Shown here: piece by piece, positions 43,314 through 44,891 of the stretch
Position numbering within the stretch: the first letter of the stretch is position 1
Layout: each line of letters begins with the position of its first letter
Assembly: GCA_028715345.1 (NCBI GenBank)
Contig: JAQUSB010000014.1
Coordinates: 1-44,891 of the forward strand
Origin: Candidatus Omnitrophota bacterium
GTDB lineage: Bacteria > Omnitrophota > Gorgyraeia > 2-01-FULL-45-10
Length of the DNA: 44,891 bases
Reading direction: 5' to 3'
Notes under the pieces: model-generated
The model's input: only the letters and a program-made list of their open reading frames with translations
The model's database searches: none
What the model was told of the DNA's origin: nothing
Position numbers and translations under genes: made by a program

Positions 43314-44501
43314 ATGATGAAACAGGCAACTACAGAGAACGGTAAGGATACGAACGGCGCTTCCAAAGAAACCCTCAATAACTTAAAAAAGATAGCGGCA
43401 AAGAACGGCACTCCGGTATTCGTGATAGACCACGAAAAGATCCGCCGGAATTACAGGGAGTTCGAAGAGGCCCTGCCCCGCGTCCAGGTGTATTTCGCGG
43501 TAAAATCGAATTCGGATCCCGAGATCGTAAGGACATTATATAAGGAAGGCGCGAGTTTCGACGTCGCGTCGATGCCGGAATTCATGATCGTCCATGAGAA
43601 TATCAAAAACCTGCCGGCTAAAGAACGGCAGGATTTCATCTGGGACAAGATAATTTACGCAAATACGATAAAGCGGATAGAGACGCTCAAGGAGCTCGAC
43701 CGGTATAAGCCGCTCGTCACCTACGATAATATCGAAGAGTTAAAGAAGATCAAAAAATACGCTCCTCACGCCGGCCTTGTACTTAGGATACGCGTCCCGA
43801 ACACAGGTTCGATGGTCGAGCTTTCGTCCAAATTCGGCGCGGATGCCGGCGAGGCAGTCGACCTCATACTCGAAGCGTTCAAGAGAGGCCTTGTGGTCGA
43901 AGGCATCAGCTTCCACGTCGGGAGCCAGTGCAATAATTTCGAAAATTACATGCAGGCGCTGCAGCTCTCCGCCAATATAATGAAAGAGGCCGAGTCGCGC
44001 GGGCATAAAATAAACATAATCGACATAGGCGGCGGCTTTCCCGTAAAATATAACAACAAGGTGAAGAGCTTCAAGACGCTTGCGCACAAATTGAATACCG
44101 AATTCGACAGGCTATTCCCTAAAGATATCGAGATATTGGCGGAGCCGGGGCGCTTCATGGTGGCCAATGCCGCTACGCTGGTCGCTAAAATAATCGGCAA
44201 AGCGGTCCGCGACGATAAGACATGCTATTACCTCGATGACGGTGTTTATCACACATTCTCCGGGATAGTTTTCGACCACTGCGTATATCCTCTGAAAGCG
44301 TTCAAGCCCGGACCTTTAAAGGTCTCGGCGGTCTTCGGACCTACCTGCGACGCTTTCGATACCATCTCGGTGGCAGAGGAACTGCCCGAGCTCGAGATAG
44401 GCGACCTCGTTTACGCGGAGAACATCGGTGCGTATTCGATAGCTTCCTCTACTTATTTCAACGGTTTCCCGCCTGCTAAAGTCGTACACATTAATAAATA
44501 A
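43314..44501 (+). CDS. Ornithine decarboxylase, alanine-racemase fold (group IV)
   Basis: 395 residues. PLP lysine K64 in 'YFAVKSNSDPEIV', 'FHVGSQCNNF', 'IDIGGGFPV', 'ILAEPGRFMVA', 'YYLDDGVYHTFSG' and the catalytic 'GPTCDAFD' (C345, D346) as in eukaryotic-type ODC; 'IGAYSIASSTYFNGF' closes the active site. The first ~20 residues are a charged extension. Makes putrescine for hss, 9 bp upstream. Tandem ATGs (43314, 43317) after AAGGA; the second has better spacing. Some family members also act on lysine, so substrate range is not certain. Confidence 0.9.
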   Translation: MMKQATTENGKDTNGASKETLNNLKKIAAKNGTPVFVIDHEKIRRNYREFEEALPRVQVYFAVKSNSDPEIVRTLYKEGASFDVASMPEFMIVHENIKNLPAKERQDFIWDKIIYANTIKRIETLKELDRYKPLVTYDNIEELKKIKKYAPHAGLVLRIRVPNTGSMVELSSKFGADAGEAVDLILEAFKRGLVVEGISFHVGSQCNNFENYMQALQLSANIMKEAESRGHKINIIDIGGGFPVKYNNKVKSFKTLAHKLNTEFDRLFPKDIEILAEPGRFMVANAATLVAKIIGKAVRDDKTCYYLDDGVYHTFSGIVFDHCVYPLKAFKPGPLKVSAVFGPTCDAFDTISVAEELPELEIGDLVYAENIGAYSIASSTYFNGFPPAKVVHINK

Positions 44502-44546
44502 AATTAGGGACAGTTACCTTTTTAATATGGTATCTGTCCCTAATTT
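44501..44546. terminator. Long inverted repeat between odc and tRNA-fMet
   Basis: Arms 44501-44518 (AAATTAGGGACAGTTACC) and 44529-44546 are complementary except one T-T mismatch, with a 10-base T/A-rich loop. The arm begins at the last base of the odc stop. The A/T-rich ends (AAATT...AATTT) make it plausible as a bidirectional terminator between converging transcripts, or a REP-type element. Confidence 0.55.
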
Positions 44547-44551
44547 TAAAT

Positions 44552-44594
44552 TGGTAGCGGGGGTCCGATTCGAACGGACGACCTTTGGGTTATG
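44552..44594 (-). tRNA. Initiator tRNA-Met, 3' exon only (intron-interrupted)
   Basis: The minus strand reads CATAACCCAAAGGTC, then GTCCG-TTCGAAT-CGGAC (T arm), CCCCGCT and ACCA, i.e. tRNA positions 34-76 with encoded CCA (44552-44554). Anticodon CAT is followed by AA and CCC at 39-41, the mark of initiator tRNA. The bases before CAT do not form a tRNA 5' half; they are group I intron sequence. The 5' exon must lie beyond 44891. Confidence 0.85.
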
Positions 44595-44891
44595 CTTGCT
44601 ACTACGGCTTTCGCCGCTCCACAGTGTGAATTTGTAGTCTGGACTATACCTCCACCCGCCGCAAAATTTTGGCGAGTGCCTGCCGTCTAGTCTCTACACC
44701 TTCCTGCTATTTTTTTAACAGGCTTGGCTCGGTATTACCATTTCAGGCTTCACCGAATTTGACAGGTTTTCATCTAATCGTTACCGACTAGATAGCCCTT
44801 TTGGACAACAAATCCCATCGCTCTTTATATATTGCCGACTTAGGTTTACGTTGCCGTTTCTTTGTTTCTACTAAGCTGATACCGCTTTTAT
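44595..44891 (-). ncRNA. Group I intron in tRNA-fMet (continues past right edge)
   Basis: Immediately before CAT of the tRNA, ending in G. Catalytic-core pairings are visible: P3 GCCTG (44744-44748) with CAGGC (44678-44682), P6/P6a hairpin (44703-44722), P7 GACTA (44688-44692) with TAGTC (44642-44646), P8 CACTCGCC (44671-44678) with GGCGGGTG (44653-44660), and a P9 region ACTAC/GTAGT (44634-44638, 44601-44605) with a GAAA-capped GGC/GCC hairpin. Conserved 'ACCGAGCCAAGCC' and 'AGAGACTAGACGG' strings resemble subgroup IC3 tRNA introns. The 5' part with P1 is outside. Confidence 0.85.
44788..44891 (-). CDS. Possible C-terminus of an intron-encoded homing endonuclease (partial)
   Basis: One frame is open from the edge to TAG at 44788-44790 for 33 codons: KSGISLVETKKRQRKP then KSAIYKERWDLLSKRAI. 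The other two frames are closed quickly. A basic tail inside a group I intron fits an endonuclease gene, and the Synechocystis tRNA-fMet intron carries one (I-Ssp6803I), but too little is visible to name a family. Confidence 0.35.
   Translation of the reverse strand, partial: KSGISLVETKKRQRKPKSAIYKERWDLLSKRAI

Follow-up and report, generated by a model that had tools for sequence, protein, structure and literature searches.

We found that the initiator tRNA gene of an Omnitrophota bacterium is split by a group I intron, which lies at the right-hand end of the DNA analysed here, a complete contig (C13) of 44,891 bases which we call the window. Very probably this is a mobile tRNA-fMet intron of the Synechocystis kind, putatively self-splicing and endonuclease-bearing, on whose splicing the host relies. 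A sequence-only reading of the window had supposed an Omnitrophota host, a 3' exon of tRNA-fMet from 44552 onward, a ribozyme with group I pairings P3, P6, P7, P8 and P9 and a possible endonuclease tail at 44788-44891, and each of these held up in the analysis described below. The named close relatives recovered in a scan of named genomes belong to Omnitrophota; the genome itself comprises 1.6 Mb in 65 contigs and is 93.6% complete, with a contamination estimate of 0.29%. On the minus strand the window carries, in order, an open frame, a group I intron core, the terminal G of the intron (44595), C34 of the tRNA (44594) and the tRNA 3' half. The intron thus occupies 44595-44891 (minus strand), from its terminal G to the contig end, with its 5' part beyond the contig and its limits set by homology with complete introns. 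The 3' exon, CATAACCC...CGCTACCA (44594-44552, minus strand), supplies C34 A35 U36, C39-C41, the variable loop, the T arm, the acceptor strand and an encoded CCA. Initiator tRNAs are marked by a CAU anticodon, three C residues at 39-41 which pair with G29-31, and a mismatch at 1-72. The CAU anticodon, C39-C41 and U72 are all present in the window, and the 5' halves found in the same family start with U1 and carry GGG, which together with the U72 of the window would give U1 x U72. Letter for letter the exon agrees with the 3' half seen in intact as well as split fMet genes of this family, and over the 29 matched bases (G000:C13:44567-44595, minus strand, the match of our split-gene pattern) it is identical in the window and in G007, G188 and G027. 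ARAGORN by itself missed the gene: its output for the window lists no fMet. Between the split tRNA and a convergent gene ending at 44501 there is a directly abutting 25-nt inverted repeat (44499-44548, 88%), probably a terminator shared by the two.

The ribozyme was recognized by cmscan, which matched RF00028 at 44619-44814 (minus strand) with 58.7 bits against a gathering score of 50 (E 1.8e-12), over the full model (1-253) and not truncated; the genome gave no other RF00028 match. We modelled its fold as eleven helices (P2, P3, P4, P5, P6, P6a, P7, P8, P9, P9.1 and P9.2, the last three labels being assigned in the present analysis) with 58 pairs, four of them in P9, and aligned the window with 36 homologous introns, which omitted two of 39 split loci (L209, which had no anchor, and L079, with a long insert). 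All 58 modelled pairs form in the core of the window itself. Across the alignment 95.4% of 2112 cells were standard pairs, compared with 81.7% in shuffles, and for 42 of the 58 pairs at least one of the 37 introns had both partners changed; the covariation score was 0.445 as against 0.189 in shuffles, none of 500 reaching it. With the partners displaced by 1-3 columns, pairing fell to 30.5-43.8%, in a control which favours the model to the extent that the model was drawn from one row. None of 200 shuffles folded as well as the intron strand (z -4.9), in a type of fold which cannot represent P7. All helices are on the minus strand. P2 (44772-44793; 44793-44786 with 44779-44772) had both-side changes in 8/8 pairs and 85.1% of its cells paired in the 37 sequences, and P8 (44653-44678; 44678-44671 with 44660-44653) likewise in 8/8 pairs with 89.8% paired. 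P3 (44679-44766; 44766-44761 with 44684-44679), which encloses P4, P5, P6 and P6a, and P7 (44642-44692; 44692-44688 with 44646-44642), the pseudoknotted catalytic helix, were paired in 100% of cells, with both-side changes in 4/6 and 2/5 pairs, respectively. P9 (44637-44634 with 44602-44599), P9.1 and P9.2, the latter with a GAAA loop, fill 44599-44637, and have 94.9-99.3% of cells paired and both-side changes in each. The internal guide sequence GGGCT, the 3' strand of P1, lies at 44794-44798 (minus strand) and its GGG is invariant in the 37 cores; judging from the complete relatives, the guide would pair with GGCT at the end of the 5' exon, outside the contig. The 5' exon ends in GGCT in those relatives which show it, and the window shows the intron's terminal G. 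The guide sequence is preceded by AAAA in the window, as against ATG in several relatives, and P10 may therefore be weak in this copy.

The open frame at 44788-44889 (minus strand) represents the last 33 codons and stop of an I-Ssp6803I-type endonuclease gene, in which the final codons extend across the guide sequence and the reading frame terminates in P2. The 33-aa tail alone had no match in Pfam, while over 29 aa it was 79% identical to a full-length relative of 147 aa in G027 (L056 465-908, minus strand), a genome of the same family. This relative matched PF11645 with 148.2 bits against a cut-off of 26.1 (E 2e-43), and also the solved structure 2OST (E 1.8e-47), which is titled 'Putative endonuclease' in its record and which we take to be I-Ssp6803I. 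Residues E11, D36, Q49 and K51, presumably the active site of the enzyme, were invariant in 26 homologues, at positions N-terminal of the point where the contig of the window ends. By its similarity to that relative, the tail very probably closes an I-Ssp6803I-family homing endonuclease of the PD-(D/E)XK type. Endonuclease matches at E 1e-8 or better occurred in 63/384 genomes of the phylum, and the scan of named genomes gave at least 80 endonuclease loci, which among the matches listed were mostly from Omnitrophota; the other hosts among these matches were Bacteroidota, Melainabacteria, Margulisbacteria, Planctomycetota, Patescibacteria, 'Deltaproteobacteria', Desulfococcaceae and one Nostoc. 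Out of 50,697 phage records, 17 had distant endonuclease matches, none covering 80% of the query. Four viral contigs (L203-L206) have an I-Ssp6803I-like gene whose 3' end meets, or stops just short of, a co-oriented intact tRNA-Met (CAT) gene. Phages could be carriers of the endonuclease.

To see both halves of the split gene we turned to relatives, among 384 sampled Omnitrophota genomes. Split genes were defined by a 3' half preceded by G in place of U33, so that the counts refer to genes bearing the exon letters of the pattern. A strict form with CCC at 39-41 found 18 genomes and was too strict, many Omnitrophota initiators having CCT there; the relaxed form found 77 genomes (79 places), while the pattern for an intact gene matched in 239 and neither pattern in 73. 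The 5' half had been expected within about 1 kb of the 3' half, and this is where the relatives have it: in 37 of 39 inspected loci (of the 79 places) a matching 5' half was located 239-967 nt upstream. The other two, namely the window and L214, which retains a partial 5' half, are both cut by a contig end. RF00028 scored above gathering in 31 of the 39 loci. In the relatives the insertion point lies between U33 and C34, and when the exons were joined in a script, ARAGORN called all of the 36 resulting pairs tRNA-Met(cat), three of the 39 loci being left out as their exons were not cut out by the regular expression. Five complete ORF-bearing introns measured 617-648 nt, and three of their proteins 140-147 aa; the complete intron of G027 is short, at 221 nt. 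In the family of the window, the 18 genomes comprised 5 with split genes, 11 with intact genes and 2 with neither, and in 8 of 9 intact loci the exon halves, with the same letters, stood at zero gap at the intron site, the ninth having no match to the 5' expression. In one genus (g2) both states occur, the gene being split in G007 and intact in G370; the two loci are homologous, and around the gene are 89.5% identical over 153 nt, 82% over 85 nt and 78.5% over 907 nt. With introns allowed, ARAGORN named the complete split fMet gene at L056 1174-1471 (minus strand) tRNA-Leu(caa), a misnaming which is a likely source of wrong annotations. It may be noted that RF00028 matches at E 0.001 or better, in any host gene, were present in 201/384 Omnitrophota genomes, up to 5 per genome, several of them near tRNAs and one within 23S rRNA (L058).

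An intact tRNA-fMet elsewhere in the genome, which the sequence-only reading had named, in combination with a copy here lacking P1, as evidence against its proposal, was looked for and none was found: of the 39 other tRNAs two have CAT, neither with initiator features, and the intact-gene pattern also had no match. The genome being 93.6% complete, a gap in the assembly could conceal an intact initiator, and this leads to the proposition that what the window holds is a dead, unspliced relic, the real initiator tRNA being intact in such a gap. In line with it, the contig ends here, within the endonuclease gene (44891) and 77 bases beyond the Rfam match, and the assembly contains no 5' half; moreover the endonuclease genes of some relatives have in-frame stops. 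We consider it improbable, as the core of the window forms every modelled pair and, of the 77 split genomes, just 5 matched the intact pattern as well (G218, G257, G346, G032 and G084; an overlap counted by eye, in which the intact match of G257 looks like a different tRNA), leaving 72 of 77 with a split gene and, as far as these patterns see, no intact copy. The gene order around the break speaks to the same point. G027 has, one after another, enolase, a small gene, the split tRNA, the endonuclease and a further gene, whose product resembles, by eye, that of the window gene ending at 44501. The 5' exon, the exon strand of P1 and most of the endonuclease gene are absent from the window because the contig stops at 44891. 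The assembly as a whole yielded no 5' exon (pattern search allowing one mismatch, with a single mismatched match on another contig), no N-terminal part of the endonuclease by protein search beyond one weak match (G000:C35, E 0.0016, 38% over residues 3-55), and no enolase, the expected neighbour. The joint absence of these three leads us to read the break as an assembly gap; the loss of enolase, upstream of the split tRNA in G027, is what one expects if the right-hand piece was lost in assembly.

The same neighbourhood bears on whether the intron came into the assembly from another organism, such as a cyanobacterium, by chimerism or contamination. The feature does sit at a contig end, and the best known example is cyanobacterial (PMC1995217). 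We hold such an origin to be very improbable, less likely still than a dead relic, since the 3' exon agrees with G007, G188 and G027 in every matched base, the gene neighbouring it in the window also flanks the split tRNA in G027 (compared by eye), and the closeness of the endonuclease tail is to a protein of G027, from an Omnitrophota family, in an assembly with so low a contamination estimate.

The preferred reading remains the mobile, putatively self-splicing intron. Going by homology and structure, a precursor RNA would span both tRNA halves, the intron would fold and its guide GGGCU would pair with the 5' exon end GGCU; it would then excise itself and the exons would join into a normal tRNA-Met(CAU), with a junction reading ...GGGCU followed by CAUAACCC. 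In this copy the stretch from the 5' splice site to the catalytic core is predicted to hold the PD-(D/E)XK homing endonuclease gene, and the enzyme, by analogy with I-Ssp6803I, would cut intronless tRNA-fMet at the anticodon region, whereupon repair would copy the intron in. Since no intact initiator tRNA was found, the host would depend on splicing for translation initiation, and this dependence would keep the ribozyme under selection. As the 5' exon, a complete P1 and the N-terminus of the endonuclease are absent from the assembly, a degenerate endonuclease or a damaged 5' side is conceivable in this particular genome.

Furthermore, we examined where the endonuclease gene lies, by a script which classed 80 loci among the matches listed and 5 viral contigs. 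Among these matches the gene was inside a split tRNA-fMet at no fewer than 39 loci (and 2 more by the 5' exon alone) and downstream of the split tRNA at 22 or more (with 4 by the 3' exon alone and 2 far); 3 were beside an intact tRNA-fMet, 2 were viral by the 3' pattern and 11 were classed as other. The copy in the window has the intron-encoded arrangement. In 31 of the 39 intron-encoded cases listed the start codon came 2-9 nt after the 5' exon, the remainder starting 17-30 nt in or having no start codon at the aligned start, and the gene ended around the guide sequence, in P2 or further on. An SD-core match of 5 or more preceded 1/25 intron-encoded genes of Omnitrophota compared with 3/8 downstream ones, a contrast in ribosome-binding sites which is suggestive only, the cases being too few to claim it. 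In-frame stops were noticed in the intron-encoded endonucleases of L099 and L121, and apparently a short remnant in a short intron in L221 and L227, as expected of decaying homing genes. At L195, L196 and L200 an endonuclease gene or fragment stands beside an intact, intronless tRNA-fMet; these may be what intron loss left behind, or enzymes whose targets have changed.

A tree of the endonucleases (78 sequences and 140 columns, with many open forks and a midpoint root, from which no direction of transfer was inferred) was built without the 33 residues of the window, L207, L198 and loci with under 120 aa of match. One branch with 100/100 support placed 40 Omnitrophota rows on one side and 2 cyanobacterial rows on the other, the 36 rows of other groups not being counted; in a quick tree of the endonucleases, as drawn, sequences of Melainabacteria, Margulisbacteria, a Planctomycete and others were interspersed among those of Omnitrophota. 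A cyanobacterial origin of the intron finds no support in the endonuclease tree, as far as 140 columns with many forks left open can tell. Horizontal spread or old retention had been offered as alternatives for an intron of this kind outside cyanobacteria; the 100/100 branch favours old residence in the phylum, and close genomes differ in carrying the intron, so that the evidence leans to an old resident of Omnitrophota with repeated gain or loss. Scored as inside or downstream for 65 rows, the position of the gene required 12 changes on the 78-sequence tree, 10-12 on bootstrap trees and no fewer than 4 when starred branches alone were counted, as against about 19.6 with shuffled labels; place is thus inherited, yet it changed several times, in counts which give no direction. 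This raises the tentative idea, to which we give slightly less than even credence, of one orthologous tRNA-fMet intron system whose endonuclease gene has moved repeatedly between the intron, with a start 2-9 nt in, and a free-standing site downstream of the split tRNA. The tRNA 5' half would then act as the leader, and perhaps the ribosome-binding site, of the intron-encoded gene, and the downstream form would have its own start region.

A tRNA-fMet intron with an I-Ssp6803I-family endonuclease is an already known kind of element, from Synechocystis, for which Biniszkiewicz 1994 and Bonocora & Shub 2001 are reportedly the references; a preprint on group I introns in tRNA genes of Patescibacteria is also said to exist. 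Bacterial group I introns are found mainly in tRNA and rRNA genes, according to the accessible part of one account (PMC3984707). As given in the excerpt available, the tRNA-fMet of Synechocystis sp. PCC 6803 has a 655-nt intron encoding the 150-aa I-Ssp6803I (PMC1995217), and agrees with the Omnitrophota introns in host gene, group I ribozyme and endonuclease family, being also similar in size (617-648 nt and 140-147 aa). It differs in host phylum, in the incompleteness of the window's copy, and by the 100/100 branch between the Omnitrophota and cyanobacterial endonucleases. The available portion of the tRNAscan-SE 2.0 paper attributes the lack of fMet or Ile2 in 36 genomes to group I introns (PMC8450103); the cases are alike in having a group I intron in the anticodon loop behind a missing fMet gene, but the genomes named in that portion include Gloeobacter and Synechocystis and not Omnitrophota. 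Our literature search, over the parts of the sources it returned, found no report linking group I introns with Omnitrophota; one paper mentions both, but the parts returned do not connect them. The switching place of the endonuclease gene resembles collaborative homing as outlined in partly available sources, where the free-standing F-CphI adjoins the intron-bearing cyanophage psbA gene (PMC6083498, PMC3984707). There too the endonuclease gene is outside the intron and next to the split gene, as it is in those relatives with the downstream arrangement; F-CphI, in contrast, belongs to another endonuclease family (Endo VII motif) and targets a phage protein gene, and the gene in the window is intron-encoded.

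What is new is the prevalence of this element in Omnitrophota, and the finding that its endonuclease gene has two sites, one within the intron and one directly downstream of the split tRNA, between which it has switched repeatedly. An essential tRNA appears to be reliant on a selfish ribozyme in about one-fifth of the sampled genomes of the phylum (77/384, of which 72 have no detected intact copy), and as ordinary tRNA finders miss or misname the split fMet, such genomes look as though they had no initiator tRNA. That the endonuclease gene occupies one or the other of two positions, in several phyla, is relevant to how mobile introns come by their endonucleases. If the proposed movement of the gene is true, the intron-encoded endonuclease would be translated only from unspliced precursor, and its output would therefore report a lack of initiator tRNA splicing. 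Together with the sister genomes which have and lack the intron, it would make Omnitrophota a natural experiment on the formation and decay of composite mobile introns.
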